Source: Pseudomonadota bacterium (GTDB lineage Bacteria > Pseudomonadota > Alphaproteobacteria > Acetobacterales > Acetobacteraceae). From it: a stretch of 15,339 nt of DNA. Made by a program: the position numbers and the translations under genes. Where the stretch lies: NCBI GenBank assembly GCA_021829055.1, contig JAJZCS010000021.1:1-15339 (forward strand). Direction: 5' to 3'. Positions 1,149 through 15,339 of this stretch are shown one piece after another; within the stretch, counting starts at the first letter, position 1, and each line of letters opens with the position of its first letter. Under the pieces are notes generated by a model. That model saw nothing but the letters and a program-made list of their open reading frames with translations. It was not told the DNA's origin and searched no databases.

Positions 1149-1697
1149 ATGGATCGTCCCGTAGCCCGCAATCTCGGCGTAGCAGCCTTCCTCATGTTCA
1201 TGCTGTCCATCCCAGTTGCCAACTGGATGATCGGTCACGTGGGCTTGGTTTGCGTGCCCCACGAAGCCTGCCTGATTCCCGTCGCCCCCGGCGTGATGGC
1301 ACCGTCCGGGGTGGTTACGGTGGGAGCCGCGCTGGTTCTGCGCGACATTGTGCAGCGCTGTCTCGGTGCCAGATACGGGCTTTTTGCCATTGTGGCCGGG
1401 GCGTTGCTCTCCGCACTCATTGTACCTGCCAGTCTTGTGATTGCATCCACAGCTGCTTTTGTACTGTCCGAATTTGCGGATTTTGCAGTTTTTTCGCCGC
1501 TGCAGCGCCGAGGCTTCATAGCTGCAGCCCTAGCGTCGTCGTCTCTTGGCATTGTCATCGACTCGATGGTGTTCCTGACACTGGCCTTTCATTCCCTTGC
1601 CTTTCTTCCTGGACAGGTTATCGGTAAACTTTGGTCAATTTTCTTTGCCATGCCGCTAATCATCCTTACTCGGCGGCTCGCTCCCACCCCTGCATGA
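1149..1697 (+). CDS. VUT/YhhQ-family queuosine precursor transporter
   Basis: A 182-residue, very hydrophobic inner-membrane protein with about five to six predicted helices (roughly 8-30, 53-70, 76-105, 122-146, 156-174). Recognisable family positions include a D-x-x-Q motif (LRDIVQR, 64-70), SEFADFAVFSPLQRR (107-121) and an S-x(n)-D-x-x-x-F helix with Asp138. The VUT family (DUF165, E. coli YhhQ) imports 7-deazaguanine precursors such as preQ0 and preQ1. It is first in an operon with queA, tgt, queF and queG and overlaps queA by four bases (ATGA at 1694-1697), which strongly supports this substrate class. The start is the first ATG after an in-frame TGA at 1137; the ribosome site is poor. 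Whether it prefers preQ0, preQ1 or queuine cannot be read from sequence; queF downstream argues for preQ0. Confidence 0.87.
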   Translation: MDRPVARNLGVAAFLMFMLSIPVANWMIGHVGLVCVPHEACLIPVAPGVMAPSGVVTVGAALVLRDIVQRCLGARYGLFAIVAGALLSALIVPASLVIASTAAFVLSEFADFAVFSPLQRRGFIAAALASSSLGIVIDSMVFLTLAFHSLAFLPGQVIGKLWSIFFAMPLIILTRRLAPTPA

Positions 1698-2734
1698 ATC
1701 TCAGCGATTTCGACTACTTTCTTCCACCGGAACGTATCGCAGTTGAACCTTCCCGCCCTCGGGATTCAGCTCGTTTGCTGCATGTTGCCCGTGACAGCCT
1801 ACAGGACTACCGTATTTCCGATCTTCCGGATCTGCTGCGTCCTGGAGATTGCCTGGTCGTTAACGACACAAAAGTAATTCCGGCTCGACTCACCGGCCGC
1901 CGAGGTAACGCCCACATAGGCATAACGCTGGATCGTCCCATGCCAGATAGAACTTGGCGCGTCTTGCTACGAAATGCTCGCCGTGCCCGCCCGGGAGACA
2001 CCATCGCCATCGACGGACCCGACAGCTTCACAGCCAAGGTCATCACCCGATTCGACGATGGTTCGGCGCAGCTGCGGTTTAACCGGGACGACGCAGATTT
2101 CGAAGCGGCTCTCTCTTCTAGTGGCGTTCTGGCCCTTCCACCTTACATTCCGCGGGATCACGGCCTCACGCCTCAAGACGCGGCCGACTACCAGACGATT
2201 TTTGCCAAACATCCGGGTGCCGTTGCAGCACCCACCGCTGGTCTCCATTTTTCACCAACGTTACTCACACGCCTCGAAGAGAAATCGATCGGTATTGCGC
2301 GAGTGACACTCCACGTAGGGGCCGGAACGTTTCTCCCAGTGAGGACTGACGATATCTCAGCCCACAGGATTCACGCCGAATACGGCGTTATCGGCGCAGA
2401 GGCGGCCGCACGGGTCAACACTGCCCGAGCGCAAGGCGGCAGAATTATCGCCGTAGGAACCACCTCGCTGCGCCTTCTGGAATCGGCTGTCGACAGGGAT
2501 GGTAGAATCTTGGAATTTGATGGAGAAACCGACATTTTCCTTCGCCCCGGCGTGCAGATTCGTTCAGCCGATCTGCTTTTGACCAATTTTCACCTTCCCC
2601 GCTCGACCTTGCTGATGCTGGTGGCCGCGTTTGCGGGACTGGACCGCATCCACTCTGCTTACAGCCACGCGATCAAGGAAAACTACCGGTTCTATTCTTA
2701 CGGTGATGCGACCCTGTTGGAGCGCGCGTTCTAA
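1694..2734 (+). CDS. queA: S-adenosylmethionine:tRNA ribosyltransferase-isomerase
   Basis: QueA transfers and isomerises the ribosyl group of SAM onto preQ1 already in the tRNA wobble position, giving epoxyqueuosine. The 346-residue product has the family motifs throughout: DYFLPPERIA near the N-terminus, PGDCLVVNDTKVIPARL (50-66), PTAGLHF (180-186), VTLHVGAGTFLPVR (204-217), VGTTSLRLLESA (254-265) and TNFHLPRSTLLMLV (297-310). The ATG at 1694 is chosen rather than the upstream one at 1631: it gives the normal N-terminus MNLSDFDYFLP, whereas the longer form would add 21 residues inside the transporter gene. It overlaps the transporter stop in an ATGA, suggesting translational coupling. A 72-base gap follows before tgt, spanned by a mini-ORF. 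Confidence 0.97.
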   Translation: MNLSDFDYFLPPERIAVEPSRPRDSARLLHVARDSLQDYRISDLPDLLRPGDCLVVNDTKVIPARLTGRRGNAHIGITLDRPMPDRTWRVLLRNARRARPGDTIAIDGPDSFTAKVITRFDDGSAQLRFNRDDADFEAALSSSGVLALPPYIPRDHGLTPQDAADYQTIFAKHPGAVAAPTAGLHFSPTLLTRLEEKSIGIARVTLHVGAGTFLPVRTDDISAHRIHAEYGVIGAEAAARVNTARAQGGRIIAVGTTSLRLLESAVDRDGRILEFDGETDIFLRPGVQIRSADLLLTNFHLPRSTLLMLVAAFAGLDRIHSAYSHAIKENYRFYSYGDATLLERAF

Positions 2735-2738
2735 GGCC

Positions 2739-2810
2739 ATGACATCTGCCGTCCGACATAAAAGCGCATTTTCTTCTGTGCTTGACCCTTTGACACCCGC
2801 ACAACCATGA
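2739..2810 (+). CDS. Possible 23-residue bridging ORF between queA and tgt
   Basis: An ATG four bases after the queA stop opens a 23-codon frame beginning [11 protein letters not shown]. It ends in a TGA overlapping the tgt start (ATGA at 2807-2810), so it fills the whole queA-tgt gap. The peptide resembles nothing I know and has no membrane or signal segment. If translated, its likeliest role is to carry ribosomes from queA to tgt, as the other direct overlaps in this operon do. A frame of this length can easily occur by chance. Confidence 0.2.
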
Positions 2811-3922
2811 CGTTTTCGTTTTCGCGGCTTGCAAGTGACGGCCAGGCCCGCTGCGGTCGCATCCACACCGCCCACGGCACCGCCGAGACACCTGCCTTCA
2901 TGGCCGTAGGCACCGTTGGTGCAGTCAAGGCGATAACTGCGGATGGCGTACGCGCCACGGGTACCGAGATCATCCTCGGAAACACATATCACCTGATGCT
3001 TCGGCCAGGTGCCGAACGTGTCGCAGCGCTAGGTGGACTGCACCGCATGACAGACTGGCCCGGGATCATACTCACCGATTCCGGTGGGTTTCAGGTCATG
3101 TCGCTGGCACAACTACGCTCAATCGACGAAACTGGAGCGACATTCCGTTCACATATTGACGGTTCTGCCTATCACCTCACCCCCGAATTTTCGACTGAAA
3201 TCCAGCACGCGCTCGACGCGACGATCACAATGGCGTTCGACGAATGCATCCAATTTCCAGCATCGTACGAGGAGGCCGCGACTTCGATGCGCCGATCAAT
3301 GCGGTGGGCGAAGCGATCCCGGGCCGCATTCGTGCCCCGTAAAGGATACGCGCAGTTTGGCATCGTCCAGGGCAGCGTCTATGCTGATCTACGAGCAGAA
3401 TCCGCCAAAGCCCTTACACAGTTAGGTTTTGAAGGCTACGCTATTGGTGGGCTGGCCGTCGGCGAAGGCCAAACAGCGATGCTTGAAACCGTCGAAGCAA
3501 CCGTGCCCTATCTGCCAAATAACCTGCCGCGTTACCTTATGGGGGTCGGAACCCCGGATGATCTCCTCAGCGCCATCGCGCGTGGAATGGACATGTTCGA
3601 CTGCGTAATTCCAACTCGAGCGGGCCGTACCGCCCGTGCGTACACGTCACGAGGAGTTCGCAATTTGCGCAACGCAAGATTTGCCAAAGAAGTAGACCCT
3701 CTGGACAACGCCTGCGGCTGCATCGCCTGTTCACGCCATAGTAGTGGCTATTTGCACCATCTGTTTCGCTGCGGGGAGATGCTCGGCCCAATGTTGCTGA
3801 CAGCGCACAACCTTACGTACTACCAAAAGCTGATGAAAGGTGCGCGTAGTGCGATTGTGGATGGCCGCTTCGCGGAATTTGTACGATCGACAAGAAAAGA
3901 ATGGGTGAACCCGCATGACTGA
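2807..3922 (+). CDS. tgt: tRNA-guanine transglycosylase (bacterial, preQ1-exchanging)
   Basis: Tgt exchanges guanine-34 in GUN-anticodon tRNAs (Tyr, His, Asn, Asp) for preQ1. The protein is 371 residues, full length for the bacterial family. Key residues are present: the general acid/base Asp91 in [11 protein letters not shown], the nucleophile Asp265 in MFDCVIPTR, the substrate-pocket GGLAVGEG (214-221), and the zinc site Cys303, Cys305, Cys308 and His334. Positions match the E. coli enzyme within one or two residues. The start gives the normal N-terminus [17 protein letters not shown]. The 3' end overlaps queF by eight bases. Nothing is truncated or missing. Confidence 0.98.
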
Positions 3923-4376
3923 CGAACGTTACGCAGGGCTGCATGCGCTTGGAGCGAAATCGGCCATACCTGAATCTCCCGATCTTGCCATACTCGAACG
4001 CGTCGCAGCACCTGACCAAAAGAATCTCGTTATCCGTTTCACAAGCCCGGAATTCACGTCGCTCTGTCCCATTACCAAGCAGCCTGATTTCGCCCACATT
4101 GTCATCGACTACATTCCCGATGCATGGATCATTGAAAGCAAATCCCTCAAACTTTTCCTTAATTCTTTCCGTAATTACGGCGCCTTTCACGAAACCTGCA
4201 CGGCCACAATTGCGGAACGCGTCGTCGCGGCCGTCGCACCGGTCTGGCTTCGTATCGGTGCTTACTGGTATCCCCGCGGGGGCATCCCGATCGATGTATT
4301 CTGGCAGACCGGCGTTCCACCCGAGGGCATATTTCTTCCCGATCAGGGCATTGGGCCCTACCGCGGCCGCGGCTGA
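3915..4376 (+). CDS. queF: NADPH-dependent 7-cyano-7-deazaguanine (preQ0) reductase, type I
   Basis: QueF reduces the nitrile of preQ0 to the aminomethyl group of preQ1 using NADPH. At 153 residues this is the short, single-domain YkvM-type form rather than the long E. coli form. The catalytic Cys51 lies in [14 protein letters not shown], with the conserved Asp58 following. The family signature ESKSLK is at 74-79 and the HE pair is at 92-93. The start codon lies eight bases inside the end of tgt, and the gene is followed after only three bases by queG, so the genes are almost certainly cotranscribed. QueF supplies the substrate for Tgt and, with the transporter upstream, fits a route starting from imported or locally made preQ0. 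Confidence 0.97.
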
Positions 4377-4379
4377 AAA

Positions 4380-5459
4380 GTGGCCGACGACCATCTCAAA
4401 CAGAAGATCGCCGACCATGCCAAAACGCTTGGGTTTGATTCTGTCGGCTTTGCCCGCGCCACAGTGAGAGAGGCTCACCGCACGGGTTTGTATGCCTACC
4501 TTGCCGCCGGTTACCATGGCACGATGTTCTGGATGAACAGTCGCGCGAAGTTGCGAGGCAATCCAGCAGTGCTCTGGCCAGACGCCGTAAGCATCATCTC
4601 TCTTGGTCTGTCCTATGCACCGAAGGGCGATCCCCTAGCCACCCTGCGTGCGCACGGTCGCGGCAATATCTCGGTCTACGCGCGTAACCGCGATTATCAT
4701 GAGGTTCTGAAAGGAAAGCTCAAGCATCTGGCACAGTTCATAATCTCTAAGGGTGGCGGGCAGGCGAAGGTCTTTGTCGACACTGCGCCCTTAATGGAAA
4801 AGCCCGTAGCGCACCTGGCCGGCATCGGCTGGCAGGGCAAGCACACCAATCTCGTATCGCGTCGCCATGGATCTTGGCTTTTGCTTGGAGAAATCATGAC
4901 GACCTTGGATTTTGCTCCTGATGAACCACACCGAGATCGCTGCGGAAGTTGTACGAACTGCCAAACCGCGTGCCCAACGAACGCGTTCCCGCAACCGTAC
5001 CAGCTGGATGCACGGCGTTGTATCTCTTATCTCACCATTGAACATGATGGGTCGATCCCCGAAGAATTTCGCCACAAAATGGGAAATCGCATTTACGGTT
5101 GTGACGATTGTCTGGCCGTCTGCCCATGGAACAAATTTGCGCAGGCGGGACGAGAGCAAAAACTCGCGGCGCGCGAAGACCGGATCGCACCGGACCTGGC
5201 CTCTCTTGCGGAGCTGGATGACGTCGGCTTTCGCACCCGATTTTCCGGCTCACCGATAAAGCGGATCGGCCGCAATCGCCTGCTGCGCAACGTGGCGATA
5301 GCGATTGGTAATTCGAGAGACCCGAACCTCCTCGCTGCGGCCATGAAACTTGCTCGTGATCCCGCTGCGGTCGTCGCTGAAGCTGGGGCCTGGGCCTATG
5401 ATCGATTAACGAAAGACGATTGTTCCCAAACGAACTCACCGAAGAAACATTACGACTAA
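4380..5459 (+). CDS. queG: Epoxyqueuosine reductase (cobalamin and Fe-S dependent)
   Basis: QueG performs the last step, reducing epoxyqueuosine in tRNA to queuosine, using cobalamin and two [4Fe-4S] clusters. The 359-residue product has the conserved Asp134 in FVDTAPLMEKP, then GIGWQGKHTN (148-157). The ferredoxin-type cysteines are C188, C191, C194, C198 and C214, C241, C244, C248 (CGSCTNCQTACP and YGCDDCLAVCPWN). The C-terminal 90 residues look like the HEAT-like repeats of the family. Translation starts at GTG 4380, three bases after queF; it gives the expected N-terminus and no better start exists. The choice of queG, rather than the cobalamin-independent queH, implies that the cell makes or imports B12. 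Its last 24 bases overlap the convergent gene on the other strand. Confidence 0.97.
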   Translation: MADDHLKQKIADHAKTLGFDSVGFARATVREAHRTGLYAYLAAGYHGTMFWMNSRAKLRGNPAVLWPDAVSIISLGLSYAPKGDPLATLRAHGRGNISVYARNRDYHEVLKGKLKHLAQFIISKGGGQAKVFVDTAPLMEKPVAHLAGIGWQGKHTNLVSRRHGSWLLLGEIMTTLDFAPDEPHRDRCGSCTNCQTACPTNAFPQPYQLDARRCISYLTIEHDGSIPEEFRHKMGNRIYGCDDCLAVCPWNKFAQAGREQKLAAREDRIAPDLASLAELDDVGFRTRFSGSPIKRIGRNRLLRNVAIAIGNSRDPNLLAAAMKLARDPAAVVAEAGAWAYDRLTKDDCSQTNSPKKHYD

Positions 5460-9079: not shown

Positions 9080-9670
9080 ATGACCCGCACCGCAGAAATT
9101 AAACGCAAAACCGCTGAAACCATCGTCGAGGTCCGCCTTGATCTCGACGGAACTGGCCTTACCGACGTCGCAACGGGCATCGGCATTTTTGATCATCTGC
9201 TTACATCCCTAGGCCGTCACACCCTATTCGATCTCTTCATCCATGCGGAAGGCGACCTGCATATTGACGCCCACCATACGATTGAGGATGTCGGCATCGT
9301 CCTCGGTCGCGGGTTGCACCAGGCACTCGGCGATAAACGCGGCATTACACGCTTTGGCCACGCGATCCTGCCAATGGACGAATCCCGCGTTGAAGCGGCA
9401 GTCGACCTCTGTGGACGCGGCTTCCTAGCATTCGACATCGACTTTGAGAGAGCAATGCTAGGAGATATGGACACGCAGCTAGTGGAGGAGTTCTTCCGGG
9501 CACTTACCACGAACGGCCAGTTTACTCTCCATCTCAGCCGCCGTGCCGGCCGCAACACGCATCACGTGGCGGAAGCCGCTTTCAAGGCCGCGGCTCGCGC
9601 TCTGCGGATGGCTGTGGAACTCGATGCTCGGCAGGTGGAAAGCATCCCCTCCACCAAAGGCATTCTGTGA
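9080..9670 (+). CDS. hisB: Imidazoleglycerol-phosphate dehydratase
   Basis: HisB dehydrates imidazole-glycerol phosphate to imidazole-acetol phosphate, the sixth step of histidine synthesis, with manganese. The 196-residue product is the monofunctional enzyme without a phosphatase domain. Metal-binding motifs DAHHTIEDVG (63-72) and NTHHVAEAAFKA (159-170) are intact, as are the N-terminal FDHLLTSLGRHTLFDL (37-52) and the C-terminal PSTKG. The ATG at 9080 is the first start after an in-frame TGA at 9062. It is first in the operon, and its stop overlaps hisH in GTGA. Other his genes (hisG, hisD, hisC, hisI) are not in the window. Confidence 0.97.
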   Translation: MTRTAEIKRKTAETIVEVRLDLDGTGLTDVATGIGIFDHLLTSLGRHTLFDLFIHAEGDLHIDAHHTIEDVGIVLGRGLHQALGDKRGITRFGHAILPMDESRVEAAVDLCGRGFLAFDIDFERAMLGDMDTQLVEEFFRALTTNGQFTLHLSRRAGRNTHHVAEAAFKAAARALRMAVELDARQVESIPSTKGIL

Positions 9671-10302
9671 CGGTCGCCATTATCGATACCGGCAGTGGCA
9701 ATCTGGCTTCGGCCGCGCGCGGCCTTGAGCGCGCAGCGGCGGACATCGGCATCTCTACGGCCGTCGTCATTACAGACGACCCCACCATCGTGGCCACTGC
9801 CAAGCGAATCGTTCTTCCGGGCCAAGGTTCGTTTGCTGATTGCGCCCGCGGCCTAGCGATCAAGCCACAGCTTCGAGAGGCGCTGTTCGCCCGCGTCAAG
9901 TCTGGAGTACCTTTTCTCGGAATTTGTGTCGGTATGCAGTTGATGGCCGAACGCGGCCATGAGCACGGGACGACTAAAGGCTTCGGCTGGATTCGAGGCG
10001 ATATCACCCCAATACGACCGACAGGCTTGCGCTTGCCTCATATGGGCTGGAATGAACTTTTTTTTCGGGCCTCGCACCCATTGCTTGCTGGTATTAAGCC
10101 GGGGGACCATGCCTATTTCGTGCATTCATACGCTTTGACCGGCGCCAACTCAGCTGATGTCATCGCCACCACCGATTACGGAGGCACAATCGTTGCGATG
10201 GTTGCATCGGGAAATTATGCAGGCACCCAGTTCCACGTCGAAAAAAGCCAAGAGGTCGGCCTCACGATCCTGCGCAATTTCCTCTGCTGGACTCCTCAAT
10301 GA
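9667..10302 (+). CDS. hisH: Imidazole glycerol phosphate synthase, glutamine amidotransferase subunit
   Basis: HisH hydrolyses glutamine and passes ammonia to HisF. The 211-residue class I amidotransferase has its triad: Cys87 in FLGICVGMQLM, His190 and Glu192 in TQFHVEKSQ. The oxyanion strand LPGQGSF (50-56) and HMGWNEL (125-131) are also present. The start is the GTG at 9667 inside the hisB stop (GTGA overlap), giving the normal N-terminus VTVAIIDTGSGNLAS. The partner hisF lies two genes downstream, separated by an acetyltransferase gene and hisA. Confidence 0.96.
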   Translation: MTVAIIDTGSGNLASAARGLERAAADIGISTAVVITDDPTIVATAKRIVLPGQGSFADCARGLAIKPQLREALFARVKSGVPFLGICVGMQLMAERGHEHGTTKGFGWIRGDITPIRPTGLRLPHMGWNELFFRASHPLLAGIKPGDHAYFVHSYALTGANSADVIATTDYGGTIVAMVASGNYAGTQFHVEKSQEVGLTILRNFLCWTPQ

Positions 10303-10856
10303 ACCAGTCACAGACTCAAGATCTGCCACCGCCCCAATCCCTCACCGTTGATCGTGTTTCTGATCTCAGCGATGACGAGTTGCACGCCTTATGCGAAGCC
10401 GCGGACGCTGCAATCCTTGATGGAGGCGGCTTTGGTTGGGTCCGTCCGCCTCGGCGAGCGACGCTTGAGCAATATTTTCGGGGCCTCGTGCTGGTGCCTG
10501 AGCGTGAGCTTTTTGTCGGCCGGATGGATGGCACGATCTACGGTGCCGCCCAACTGGTGCGTCCTCCCCGCCACAACGAAGCTCAGGCATTTTGCGCGAC
10601 ACTGATGCACAACTTTGTTGCCCCCTATGCTCGCGGCCACGGCCTTGCTCGGCTGATCGTCGCGCGTATAGAGGAACGCGCGCGCGCCCTCGGCTTCAAA
10701 GTTCTTAACCTCAATGTCCGAGCCTCCCAAACTGCCGCAATTTCGCTTTACGAAGCCGCAGGATTCACGCGCTGGGGCACACATCCTGCCTATGCCCGCA
10801 TAGAGGGGCAAACCGTAGCTGGTCATTTCTATTTCAAAATGCTGCAACCCGACTGA
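10299..10856 (+). CDS. GNAT-family N-acetyltransferase within the his operon
   Basis: A 185-residue protein with the GNAT fold. The acetyl-CoA pyrophosphate loop is ARGHGLA (111-117, R-x-x-G-x-A type), preceded by the strand [12 protein letters not shown] and followed by the typical [18 protein letters not shown] segment (139-156). The start overlaps the hisH stop by four bases (ATGA), and hisA begins four bases after its stop, so it is embedded in the operon. The acceptor is not predictable; an amino acid, a small metabolite or a protein lysine are all possible. The placement between hisH and hisA is close enough to imply coexpression but does not prove a role in histidine metabolism. Family call is firm, function unknown. 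Confidence 0.88.
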
Positions 10857-10860
10857 TGCC

Positions 10861-11598
10861 ATGGCTCTCACCCTCTATCCAGCAATCGATCTGAAGGATG
10901 GACGATGCGTCCGTCTCAAACGAGGTGTCATGGAAGATGCCACAATCTACGGCGACGAGCCCGCTGCACAGGCAAGGCTTTTTGAGTCCGTCGGATTCAA
11001 GGCTCTGCATGTCGTTGACCTTGACGGCGCCTTCGCCGGCCGACCTGTTAACGCCACCGCTGCCCGTGCGATCCTCGCAGCATGCCATATCCCAGTACAG
11101 CTCGGTGGTGGTATCCGCGACATGGTCAGCATCAGCTCATGGCTTGAACTGGGAGTCTCCCGCATTATTCTCGGTAGCGTCGCAGTGAAGAATCCTGCGC
11201 TCGTGCGACAAGCTGCCAAAACCTTTCCAGGACAGATTATTGTGGGTATCGATGCGCGTGACGGGATGGTCGCCACAGAAGGCTGGTCACAAACGTCGAC
11301 CCTGACAGCGACAGAGATCGCAAAACACCTTGAAGATTCGGGTATCACCGCAATCATCTACACAGACATTGCGCGCGACGGGATGCTTTCTGGCCTCAAC
11401 CTCGAAGCAACCGAAGCGCTCGCGGCAACCGTCGCCATCAATGTTATCGCGTCGGGTGGCGTGGCAGGGGTTGAAGATATCGTGCGCCTCCGTGAAGCGT
11501 CTGCGCGACATTCAAATCTCGTGGGCGCCGTCGTTGGCCGAGCCTTTTACGATGGCAGTCTTGTGCCAAAGATTGCCTTGGCCGCCGCAACATGCTGA
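10861..11598 (+). CDS. hisA: ProFAR isomerase (phosphoribosylformimino-AICAR-P isomerase)
   Basis: HisA carries out the Amadori rearrangement of ProFAR to PRFAR, the substrate of the HisFH synthase. The 245-residue TIM barrel shows the twofold pattern of the family. The catalytic pair is Asp10 in PAIDLKDG and Asp131 in VGIDARDG, and the phosphate-binding loops LGGGIR (81-86) and ASGGVAG (197-203) are intact. [13 protein letters not shown] (166-178) is the usual specificity segment. Trp142 is also present. The start at 10861 follows the acetyltransferase stop by four bases. The last seven bases overlap hisF. Confidence 0.97.
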
Positions 11599-12368
11599 AG
11601 CTCCGCGTCATTCCCTGCTTGGATGTCAAGGATGGCCGGGTTGTCAAAGGCGTGAACTTCGTATCGCTGCGCGACGCGGGAGATCCAGTCGAACAGGCGG
11701 TCATCTACGACGCAGCCGGTGCTGACGAACTCACGTTCCTGGATATTACAGCAAGCCACGAGGGTCGGGATACCATCCTTGATGTTGTCGCCCGAACAGC
11801 CGCCCACGTTTTCCTGCCGCTTACCGTCGGTGGCGGCATCCGCACCACTGACGACATGCGTCGCCTACTGCTGGCAGGCGCGGACAAGTGCAGCATAAAC
11901 TCTGCGTGCATAACCCATCCCGATCTAATCAACGAAGCCGCGCGCAAGTTCGGCAGCCAGTGCGTTGTGGTGGCGATAGATGCGCGCGCTAACTCGGGCG
12001 GTGGCTGGGAGGTCTTCAGTCATGGCGGCCGCCGACCAACAGGAATCGACGCAATCGCCTGGTGCCGCGAAGTCGAGGCGCGCGGTGCCGGAGAAATCCT
12101 GCTCACGTCAATGGACCGCGACGGCACGGGCAGCGGCTTCGATCTCGCGCTCCTGCACGCAGCTTCCGACGCAACCCGCGTACCATTAATCGCTTCCGGC
12201 GGTGTCGGCCAACTCGAGCACTTCGTGGAAGGTGCCAAAGCAGGCGCGACTGGCTTACTCGCCGCGAGTGTGTTTCATTTCGGTACATTTACAATCACTG
12301 AAGTGAAATCCGCGCTAGCTCGGGCGGGTTTGCCGGTGCGCTTGCCGCACCGGCGCACGTCGGCCTAG
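11592..12368 (+). CDS. hisF: Imidazole glycerol phosphate synthase, cyclase subunit
   Basis: HisF uses ammonia from HisH to convert PRFAR to imidazole-glycerol phosphate and AICAR, the latter feeding purine synthesis. The 258-residue TIM barrel has both catalytic aspartates, Asp11 ([13 protein letters not shown]) and Asp130 (VVAIDARA). It also has phosphate sites VGGGIRT (79-85) and ASGGVGQ (201-207), and [14 protein letters not shown] (171-184). The start overlaps hisA by seven bases and gives the canonical [13 protein letters not shown] short basic tail [12 protein letters not shown] closes the protein. HisE follows after ten bases. Confidence 0.97.
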
Positions 12369-12378
12369 ACTCGACCTC

Positions 12379-12891
12379 ATGGCAAAAAAGGCTCCCGATT
12401 CGCGGGCTCTAAAATCGCGCAAGCTGAAGCGCGGCAATTCCGGAACAGCCCGGCTACAGACACCTGCCGGGCTGCCATCCTTGATGCCGAAGCAAAGCAA
12501 GAAGTTGCCACCTGTCTCACCACTAAATCCCGATCTACCAGATGCGCGGGTACTTGATCGGCTGTGGTCGACGATTCTCTCACGTAAGGACGCGGACCCA
12601 CTCGTCAGCCATTCCGCCCGCCTCCTGTCACGCGGCATCAACAAAGTCGCCCAAAAATTTGGTGAGGAATCCGTCGAATGTCTGATAGAGGCAGTTGCAG
12701 GAAACCGAACAGCTCTCGTGGCCGAGTCCGCCGATGTTCTCTATCATCTTCTCGTGATGTTGGTCGCCTCAGGCATCCGGCCTGAAGAGATCTGGGCCGA
12801 ACTGGTCCGACGCGAAGGCGTGAGTGGCATCGCTGAAAAAACGGCGCGCAAGGTTTCCGTTCTAATCGCTGAAACCCGGAAAATACCATGA
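12379..12891 (+). CDS. hisE: Phosphoribosyl-ATP pyrophosphatase with a basic N-terminal extension
   Basis: HisE hydrolyses phosphoribosyl-ATP to phosphoribosyl-AMP. The catalytic all-helical domain occupies about residues 56-170, with [17 protein letters not shown] (89-105) and [13 protein letters not shown] (116-128) carrying the acidic metal-binding residues. Residues 1-55 are a lysine- and arginine-rich, low-complexity extension ([19 protein letters not shown]) that brings the length to 170 compared with roughly 105-110 for a minimal HisE. A start at the internal Met36 would shorten it, but no better ribosome site is visible there. The stop overlaps the next gene (ATGA at 12888-12891). Function is firm; the exact start is less so. 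Confidence 0.93.
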
Positions 12892-13286
12892 CGACAAATT
12901 CCAGTTCAAAGGGCCTTTCCGTCAAGCCATCTTATGACGATGACAATGTCTTTGCCCGCATCCTGCGTGGTGATTTGCCATGTCAGAAGATTTATGAGGA
13001 CGAATTCGCGCTCGCCTTCTACGACATCAATCCGCAGGCACCCGTTCACGTTCTAGTCATCCCAAAAGGCCAGTACATTTCTTTCAGCGACTTTTCGTCA
13101 ACCGCCAGCAGCAACGAGATTGCCGGGTTCATACGCGCGGTTGGCAGCGTGGCAGGAAAACTTGGAGTAGAAGAGCCAGGTTATCGCCTTCTCGCAAATA
13201 CCGGTCTGGACAGTCACCAAGAGGTCCAGCATTTCCATATACATCTTTTTGCGGGAAAGCCGCTCGGCCCCATGCTGACCCGCTAA
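12888..13286 (+). CDS. HIT-family (histidine triad) nucleotide-binding protein
   Basis: A 132-residue HIT-fold protein of the HinT/PKCI branch. It has [22 protein letters not shown] near the N-terminus, a central PVHVLVIPK strand (52-60), and the signature [10 protein letters not shown] with the histidine triad at 115, 117 and 119. Family members hydrolyse nucleoside phosphoramidates and adenylates through the central histidine. It overlaps hisE by four bases and sits at the end of the his genes. AMP-lysine or AMP-histidine adducts are only possible substrates. The stop at 13286 is seven bases before the next gene. Confidence 0.92.
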
Positions 13287-13293
13287 CTGTGCC

Positions 13294-15339
13294 ATGATCA
13301 TAGCCGCACCACGGCTTTTTATTGATGGCGTTTTCATCTCTGCCGCTGCCGTAGAGTTCGAAGCCGGCCGCATTACCGCCGTTCATCGGCAGCTTCGCGC
13401 AACAAGCAATGTCGTCCAACTCGATCACGGCTTTCTTGCCCCTGGCCTTATCGACATCCATAATAACGGAGCGTTTGGCATTGATTGTGCGACCGCCGAG
13501 CCTTCCGACATTCTCCACCTCGCCCGTATGCTTGCTGCCAAAGGAGTCACAAGCTTTGCCCCGACCATCGTCACGGCAGCAATTCCCGAGCTGCACGAGT
13601 CGGCTTCCCGGATCGCAGCCGCTCATCCCGGTGCAGACGCAGCATCCATACTCGGCCTGCACCTGGAAGGTCCCTTTCTCTCCCGTGCCTATCGGGGTGC
13701 GCACCCAGCCGACCTGCTAGTTCCGCCATCGGAAGCCAATCTCAACGCCTTGCTGGGCAGCGAAAGGCTTAGGCAGATACTCCGTTTGGTTACCATCGCG
13801 CCCGAACTGCCCGGAGCGCTCGAGGCGATCACCCGACTGCACAAGTGTGGCGTTCTCGTTGCCTTGGGACATACCGGAGCGGATTCTGCCACCTCGCTCC
13901 GCGCTCTCGCCGCGGGCGCCAGCATCGCGACACACGTCTTCAACGCCATGGCCCCGCTACACCACCGCGCGCCAGGCCTCCCCGGTATCGCTCTAACTGA
14001 TCCTCGAGTTTCCATGTGCATCATCGCGGATGGCGTGCATCTCGACCCATCAATACTCCGCCTCTGTTACAGTGCCGCCCCCAATCGTGCTGTCGCCGTT
14101 ACCGATTCCGTTAGCCTAGCCGGCCTCCCGAGTGGAGCAACCGCGTCGTTTGGTGGAGGGACAGCCATCCTACGCGACGGAGCGGCGCGCCGAGCAGACG
14201 GATCGCTTTGCGGTGCCGCTATCACGCTTGACCAAGGGCTCACCCGGCTCATCGATGCTGGCATTCCGCCGGAAGCGGCGCTCCGCTCGGCCACGGCAGC
14301 CGCTGCCCGAGCTCTTGGTATGAGCGACCGCGGCCGAATCACGCCGGGAGCACGCGCCGATCTCGTCTGGTTTGACGATAACTTTTCACCTCTCGAAACC
14401 TGGATCGGTGGTCGTGCCGTACATGGCATCATCGGCACGCCAAAACAAACATTTCCATCACTGGCGCCAACCGAAATGGCTCGACCGGATCTCGCGGGCC
14501 TTGATCTACAGCCAAGCGAAGTGATTGTTCGTTCGCTCTTGGATCAGGAAGCCGCTGCCCACGCTTGTCTGCAATGGGTAACCGCACAGCTCGCCCAACT
14601 CGCTGATATTGTAGCCCGTACAATTGCAAACGCGGGACGTGTGTTCACACTTGGGGCCGGCACATCAGGCCGTTTAGCAGTACTCGACGCCGTCGAATGT
14701 GGACCAACGTTTTCAGTTCCCCCCGGAATCATCGTTCCCCTTCTTGCAGGTGGGGAAACAGCCCTGACTCGGGCAGCCGAGGGAGCAGAGGATGATGGAG
14801 CGGCTGCGATTAAAGCGCTTGACTCTCACGGCCTCAACGCAACCGATCTCGTTCTCGGAATTTCCGCCTCGGGGAACACGGAATTCGTGCGAGCCGGTCT
14901 TGCATATGCCAGGACCATCGGTGCCATCACTGCTGCGATTATCAACAACCAGACCGGTACGATTGCAGACGCCGCAGACCACCTGATCGTTCTCGATACA
15001 GGCCCAGAAATTCTCGCCGGATCCACTCGACTGTCAGCGGGAACCGCTCAGAAAATTGCGCTAAACACCCTCTCAACGACCGCGATGATCCGTCTTGGAA
15101 AAACCTTAGGCACCTACATGGTTGAGTTGCAGGCCACCAACGCAAAGCTGCGTGACCGAGCAACGCGTATCGTGTGTGCCATTACCAAGTGCGACGAGGG
15201 TCGTGCAGAAACGACGCTGGAACAAGCGAACTACGCTGTCAAAACAGCGGTCATCATGATTCGTTTGAACGTCGACGTCGACACGGCCAATCGGCGCCTC
15301 GCCCAAGCAGGCGGCCGCCTGCGCAACGCTTTAGAGCCA
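13294..15339 (+). CDS. NagA-MurQ fusion: GlcNAc-6-P deacetylase joined to MurNAc-6-P etherase, runs off right edge
   Basis: One frame without a stop for 682 codons, reaching the window edge. Residues 1 to about 385 are NagA: HLEGPF with Glu125, LGHT with His193, THVFNAM with His214, IIADGVH ending at His249, and catalytic Asp271 in AVTDSVSLAG. After a short join (TPKQTFPSLAPTE) residues from about 392 are MurQ: the SIS phosphosugar loop GAGTSGR (454-460), Glu468 in LDAVECGPTF and Glu499 in EGAED, matching catalytic Glu83 and Glu114 of E. coli MurQ, then SGNTEF, AGSTRLSAGTAQK and RLRNALEP at the edge, where E. coli MurQ also nearly ends. MurQ releases D-lactate from MurNAc-6-P to give GlcNAc-6-P, and NagA deacetylates it to GlcN-6-P. 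The start ATG is seven bases after the HIT stop with no clear ribosome site. Confidence 0.93.
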   Translation, partial: MIIAAPRLFIDGVFISAAAVEFEAGRITAVHRQLRATSNVVQLDHGFLAPGLIDIHNNGAFGIDCATAEPSDILHLARMLAAKGVTSFAPTIVTAAIPELHESASRIAAAHPGADAASILGLHLEGPFLSRAYRGAHPADLLVPPSEANLNALLGSERLRQILRLVTIAPELPGALEAITRLHKCGVLVALGHTGADSATSLRALAAGASIATHVFNAMAPLHHRAPGLPGIALTDPRVSMCIIADGVHLDPSILRLCYSAAPNRAVAVTDSVSLAGLPSGATASFGGGTAILRDGAARRADGSLCGAAITLDQGLTRLIDAGIPPEAALRSATAAAARALGMSDRGRITPGARADLVWFDDNFSPLETWIGGRAVHGIIGTPKQTFPSLAPTEMARPDLAGLDLQPSEVIVRSLLDQEAAAHACLQWVTAQLAQLADIVARTIANAGRVFTLGAGTSGRLAVLDAVECGPTFSVPPGIIVPLLAGGETALTRAAEGAEDDGAAAIKALDSHGLNATDLVLGISASGNTEFVRAGLAYARTIGAITAAIINNQTGTIADAADHLIVLDTGPEILAGSTRLSAGTAQKIALNTLSTTAMIRLGKTLGTYMVELQATNAKLRDRATRIVCAITKCDEGRAETTLEQANYAVKTAVIMIRLNVDVDTANRRLAQAGGRLRNALEP

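Follow-up and report, generated by a model that had tools for sequence, protein, structure and literature searches.

NagA (GlcNAc-6-P deacetylase) and MurQ (MurNAc-6-P etherase) are normally separate proteins, although the fusion of consecutive enzymes is in itself a common kind of event. The locus studied here raises the question of whether a single chain carrying both is a genuine bifunctional enzyme and, if so, what the fusion is for. The window analysed is a whole contig of 15,339 bp from a draft metagenome-assembled genome (2.1 Mb in 305 contigs, 78.5% complete). At its end, one stop-free frame runs for 682 codons on the plus strand (13294-15339) and off the contig. A preliminary description made from the DNA letters had read this frame as NagA and MurQ in one polypeptide, and we confirmed both the frame and the two domain matches. 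The features are as follows.

13294..15339, plus strand: NagA-MurQ fusion gene, of which the window shows 682 codons; truncated at its 3' end by the contig boundary
13294..14421, plus strand: NagA (GlcNAc-6-P deacetylase) domain, residues 1-376
13666..13668, plus strand: NagA Glu125, equivalent to E131 of E. coli NagA
13870..13872, plus strand: NagA His193, equivalent to H195 of E. coli NagA
13933..13935, plus strand: NagA His214, equivalent to H216 of E. coli NagA
14104..14106, plus strand: NagA Asp271, equivalent to D273 of E. coli NagA
14422..14469, plus strand: linker of varying sequence and length, residues 377-392, with predicted disorder at 382-389
14470..15339, plus strand: MurQ (MurNAc-6-P etherase) domain, residues 393-682, with the T-E motif at its start
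14695..14697, plus strand: MurQ Glu468, placed by alignment with solved MurQs
14788..14790, plus strand: MurQ Glu499, placed by alignment with solved MurQs

Because the gene reaches the contig end, its stop codon is not visible; the 682 residues encoded in the window amount to 70.2 kDa. Little of the 3' end seems to be missing, since MurQ profiles aligned up to 291/291 positions (TIGR00274) and 296/300 positions (PRK05441), and the fusions of the two nearest relatives terminate after residue 681. A gene at a contig end in a draft of 305 pieces could also be the product of an assembly error that joined two genes. Against this, all 120 of the best-scoring proteins listed are fusions of identical architecture, relatives carry the fusion on contigs of up to 3.7 Mb, and two other assemblies contain it at 92% identity. 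The same catalytic residues recur in these 120 proteins, which excludes an artefact for the family, and for the window itself we consider the probability of one negligible. The alternative that relatives always keep the two halves as separate genes, which the preliminary description had named as a possible refutation, is contradicted by the same 120 proteins.

It also appears unlikely that the MurQ half is translated on its own from a start codon inside the gene, given where such codons lie. Between codons 340 and 440, the in-frame starts are ATG 343, well inside NagA, and ATG 395 (14476), GTG 410 and TTG 416, all of which follow the T-E motif at codons 393-394. The motif is well kept (Thr in 118 and Glu in 120 of 121 fusion rows), and its position ahead of the ATG at 14476 is as previously described. 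The linker between the domains comprises about 16 residues (377-392).

Both catalytic sets had been reported as complete, and our alignments bear this out: none of the six residues varies across the 121 fusion proteins (the 120 best-scoring homologues listed and the window protein). The four NagA residues align with their counterparts in the E. coli structure 1ymy, and D273 is the residue changed in structure 2p53, according to its title. We take the Glu and two His to be metal-binding, the Asp to be the catalytic aspartate and the two MurQ glutamates to be catalytic. The positions of E468 and E499 are occupied by Glu in all 68 standalone MurQs compared and in solved MurQs. The NagA half scores 228.8 bits against TIGR00221, above the cut-off of 225.65 (231 for residues 1-392 alone), and 187.6 against PRK11170, below the cut-off of 483. 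The MurQ half exceeds the cut-offs of PRK05441 (328.3 bits; cut-off 168) and PRK12570 (292.6; cut-off 255). It falls under that of the TIGR00274 equivalog (279.7; cut-off 302), a result that counts against the bifunctional reading. Both halves are under purifying selection. The predicted folds match solved NagA and MurQ structures across the whole length of each domain, with a MurQ match at 1.1 Å; the list of structural matches is mostly of the NagA half, and the comparison of the MurQ half rests on four rows.

Full-length domains, intact catalytic sets, purifying selection and whole-length fold matches make a bifunctional protein the best-supported reading, and we think it very likely that this is a genuine peptidoglycan-recycling enzyme of Acidiphilium and its kin. 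In this model, AnmK would make MurNAc-6-P from imported anhydro-MurNAc, the C-terminal MurQ domain would remove D-lactate to give GlcNAc-6-P, and the N-terminal NagA domain would deacetylate GlcNAc-6-P to GlcN-6-P and acetate. The overall conversion of MurNAc-6-P to GlcN-6-P, lactate and acetate is the one that had been proposed from the window; both activities and the direction of flux are inferred.

The fusion is conserved within a small group of relatives. In a search of 40 relatives, it was whole in 10 of 12 other Acidiphilium genomes. Contig ends cut it in G012, and G010 has MurQ alone, with a distant NagA (36%) elsewhere in the genome. Of the 12 genus genomes, the window's own included, whose locus is uncut by contig ends, 11 retain the fusion; the existence of G010 within the genus shows that it is not essential. 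Among the matches listed for a family sample of 249 genomes, both halves were spanned in eight, four from Acidiphilium (the window's own genome, G000, and G006, G007 and G011) and four from the Acidocella-like group g85 (G096, G167, G213 and G249), which groups in the MurQ tree with a protein named Acidocella aquatica (P0103). The homologues listed with organism names belong to Acidiphilium and Acidocella. A database search over both domains, as had been suggested, thus places the fusion in these two genera and in a second fusion clade discussed below. Across 385 genomes sampled from the class, none of the matches listed for genomes other than the window's own extends over both halves. Among 80 loci listed in a contig scan, at least seven have both halves, six in one open frame and one (L131) in two. 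The reverse order, MurQ-NagA, was found in none of 140 two-half proteins. Of 281 matching plasmid records, three reach 80% or more coverage of the query, and in each of them nagA and murQ are annotated as separate genes. In G051 (group g40; L056:9253-11347), a frame break interrupts the NagA part of the fusion, owing either to misassembly or to decay of the gene.

Within Acidiphilium, the fusion lies at the end of a conserved his gene string, as in the window:

9080..12891, plus strand: hisB, hisH, GNAT acetyltransferase, hisA, hisF and hisE, a conserved neighbourhood upstream of the fusion (the his names are presumed from recognition of the sequences)
12888..13286, plus strand: HIT/HinT-like gene, whose best family match falls short of the cut-off

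The stop codon of the HIT/HinT-like gene is 7 bases ahead of the fusion start, and the same neighbour is found in the Acidiphilium relatives with flanking sequence. The order hisF-hisE-HIT lies directly upstream, on the same strand, in 11 of 11 Acidiphilium fusion loci with flank (the window, G001-G009 and G011), and loci with long flanks show the full string hisB-hisH-GNAT-hisA-hisF-hisE-HIT-fusion. In G010, the same gene string is followed by murQ alone. This standalone MurQ (L061:8028-9032, plus strand) occupies the fusion site with about 31 residues ahead of the T-E motif, and no NagA match was found at the locus. None of the his genes of this string was seen in the available stretches of the Acidocella-like loci and G051. 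The GNAT acetyltransferase gene between hisH and hisA (10299-10856) is a conserved part of the Acidiphilium his operon and has only weak matches. Elsewhere, the window carries a TnpB RNA-guided nuclease truncated by the contig start to its C-terminal part (1-855), a queuosine cluster queA-tgt-queF-queG (1691-5459) and, ahead of that cluster, a small ORF without an NCBIfam match (1149-1697).

To trace the origin of the fusion, we used a MurQ tree of 67 rows (25 of 135 available rows of the window's own fusion clade, here called fusion-A; 5 second-clade rows; 15 NagK-MurQ rows; and 22 that are unfused in the available frame) and a NagA tree of 45 rows. In the MurQ tree, the fusions of Acidiphilium and Acidocella share a single starred clade, which G051 and P0040 join weakly (87/47). 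The MurQ of G010 nests inside the Acidiphilium fusion clade on a starred branch, so this genome probably lost the NagA half at the original site. Five further NagA-MurQ fusions (P0135, P0154, P0169, P0180 and P0194) make up a second clade. It is sister to G018 (95/85), sits among NagK-MurQ fusions and has a MurQ with AGTPGR and DAAEL in place of AGTSGR and DAVEC. In G018, the genes are separate and run NagB-II-like, nagA, murQ, anmK. No murQ adjoins nagA in the available stretches of G086 and G161, which have the same NagA type. A single clade of both fusion groups with G010, G051 and G018 was rejected for MurQ (p-AU 0.0006), and a single clade of both fusion groups alone was rejected for NagA (p-AU 0.029). 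An Acidiphilium/Acidocella clade alone was neither rejected nor demonstrated in the NagA tree (p-AU 0.34). Two independent origins of NagA-MurQ fusions are therefore likely, short of proof because the groups were named after the trees had been seen, some branches are long and fission occurs, as in G010. For the first of them, adjacent nagA and murQ genes probably became one frame in the ancestor of Acidiphilium and Acidocella.

MurQ is also found behind a different partner. In G054 (L057:3401-5266, minus strand), a BadF-type, NagK-like kinase is fused to MurQ; nagA lies upstream and overlaps it, and anmK is in the same locus. The same type is represented by P0122-P0134 and others, including two proteins named Mycobacterium sp. 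(P0224 and P0240); the NagK-MurQ rows of the MurQ tree are 14 of 115 listed long proteins plus G054. Among the 120 proteins listed in this connection, 103 have a BadF kinase domain, 5 a NagA domain and 12 neither. Pro replaces Ser of AGTSGR in 109 of 116 long non-NagA rows. These fusions resemble the present one in having MurQ C-terminal to another sugar enzyme and differ from it in that the partner is a BadF-type kinase rather than NagA and the MurQ belongs to a separate clade. The second NagA-MurQ clade, in turn, shares both domains and their order with the window protein, while its MurQ is nested in the NagK-MurQ clade.

One feature of the MurQ half could indicate a changed function. Of the 68 standalone MurQs from other groups, 67 have the Lys of an STR-x-K-AGTAQK motif, a conserved feature seen here and not a published criterion, whereas every one of the 135 fusion-A rows has Ser (127) or Ala (8) at the same position, residue 581 of the fusion. 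All five second-clade rows have Thr there, and just 1 of the 116 other long rows has Lys. The Lys is also missing from two unfused MurQs of the same region of the tree, those of G010 (Ser) and G018 (Thr), while 17 of the remaining family members have Lys and 2 have Arg, so that its loss looks like a matter of ancestry and not an effect of fusion. Judging from this substitution, the kinetics or substrate of MurQ could differ in the fusion clade. A stronger version of the same idea gives the MurQ domain another substrate, or a sensory role such as that of its relative GKRP, and leaves NagA as the working enzyme. Besides the replacement of Lys 581, a Pfam GKRP_SIS_N match and the scarcity of Arg 528 (about 11% of fusion-A rows versus about 71% of the 68 standalone MurQs) point in this direction; however, Arg 528 is likewise rare among unfused family members (about 14% of 22). 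Both catalytic Glu are invariant, the MurQ subfamily score is far above its cut-off, the fold matches MurQ at 1.1 Å and AnmK supplies the MurQ substrate. Moreover, the standalone MurQ of G010 scores as MurQ despite its own Ser at 581. We therefore regard a sensor or different-substrate role as very improbable and retain the bifunctional enzyme as our model.

The gene content of the genus is consistent with this model. AnmK is present in all 13 genus genomes, the window's own included (in two pieces in G012), and the muropeptide importer AmpG in 11 of 13, again including the window's own. No NagB-I match exceeds the cut-off in the 13 genomes, seven of which have weak matches (27-52 bits versus 236.9). 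For NagB-II, the genus has no full frame of NagB-II length; the matches of 84-111 bits lie in GlmS-like frames of 609-1068 aa or in a 266-aa contig piece in G012. Given the lack of a NagB at the family cut-off, GlcN-6-P would most likely return to wall synthesis via GlmM/GlmU and not enter glycolysis. A BadF-type GlcNAc kinase was found in none of the 13 genomes. All 13 have ROK-family matches, those in G000 and G004 being weak at less than 60 bits, so GlcNAc-6-P might also arise from free GlcNAc; the best name for the two ROK proteins examined is fructokinase, below its cut-off.

The usual place of the alternative AmgK-MurU shunt is the tsaE locus, which we read in 34 genomes (G014 and G021, without a tsaE match, are uncounted; G021 has MurQ). 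An AmgK-like gene lies beside tsaE in six (G015, G017, G019, G023, G030 and G032), none of which shows MurQ in the search of 40 relatives, and is absent there from all 26 MurQ-bearing genomes read. G024 and G037 have neither MurQ nor AmgK at this locus, and in all 13 Acidiphilium genomes tsaE is followed directly by addB. These counts refer to the tsaE locus only and to genomes that are related to one another. The AmgK and MurU names are best matches below curated cut-offs in three representatives (161 and 237 versus 500 bits; 191 versus 370 bits). A MurU-like nucleotidyltransferase gene follows tsaE without an AmgK-like gene at 11 of the 34 loci (L085, L088, L091 and eight more). Caulobacter fits the AmgK-or-MurQ pattern: according to PMC13046382, it has no MurQ and takes the MurU route. 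With AnmK present, no NagB over the cut-off and no AmgK-MurU at its usual locus, the likely job of the fusion is peptidoglycan recycling.

This assignment places the fusion close to the known E. coli-type system of separate MurQ and NagA enzymes. The catalytic residues and predicted folds align with those of the separate enzymes, AnmK and AmpG are encoded in the genome, and the route matches E. coli-type recycling of anhydro-MurNAc as summarised in PMC13046382. In contrast to the E. coli type, Acidiphilium has one polypeptide, no NagB over the cut-off and the gene at the end of a his operon. The AmgK-MurU salvage of Pseudomonas and Caulobacter also starts from AnmK-made MurNAc-6-P, according to PMC11980594 and PMC13041923, but it bypasses GlcNAc intermediates, unlike the MurQ-NagA route. 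The naming of many fusion proteins for both functions is already known from one source database: JGI-named "N-acetylmuramic acid 6-phosphate etherase/N-acetylglucosamine-6-phosphate deacetylase" proteins belong to the same family, with the same domain order and 51-58% identity to the window protein. This double name is a listing label borne by many, not all, of the fusion proteins; P0002, at 93% identity to the window protein, has no name. In the open-access literature we found no paper describing a NagA-MurQ fusion, although an older mention is possible in the Jaeger and Mayer review of the MurNAc etherase, and none treating MurQ, NagA and Acetobacteraceae together.

What the fusion may be good for is a separate question. 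The preliminary description had suggested channelling, in which MurQ would hand GlcNAc-6-P on to NagA and keep it apart from the cytosolic pool. Consecutive reactions in one chain, the existence of a second similar fusion and the fact that genus genomes with the fusion have no other copy of either enzyme would all fit. However, the linker varies in length and sequence, G010 has lost its NagA half, and the fusion may serve 1:1 expression only. The structure prediction, from which it had been hoped to see whether the active sites face each other, lends no support: the AlphaFold model has pLDDT below 50 at linker residues 382-389 and a pTM of 0.58, and thus fixes no relative orientation of the two sites. 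Both parent enzymes are dimers, so a single chain would have to accommodate two dimer axes. We consider true channelling quite unlikely. A related but broader idea is that MurNAc salvage was rewired from a MurU shunt to a fusion that would hold GlcNAc-6-P on the enzyme, so that muramic acid would go back solely into wall synthesis, as GlcN-6-P, without a deaminase to drain it off, and that the same solution evolved twice in neighbouring lineages, NagK-MurQ being a third; we offer this as a speculation that is probably wrong in its full form.

The explanation that we favour, with modest confidence, is mainly one of stoichiometry or operon structure, in which two co-expressed genes were joined with no mechanistic gain. 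The nagA and murQ genes of G018 are already adjacent and in the same order, nagA overlaps nagK-murQ in G054, the linker is flexible and the fusion was reversed in G010. The retention of the fusion in 11 of 12 uncut genus loci and the probability that the genes fused more than once speak for some advantage beyond this.

In summary, two consecutive steps of peptidoglycan recycling appear to be carried out by one chain in Acidiphilium and its kin. Since related genomes hold fused, second fused, separate but adjacent, and secondarily unfused versions, any benefit of fusion could be measured against natural controls. Our findings support an E. coli-type recycling pathway in acidophilic Acetobacteraceae.
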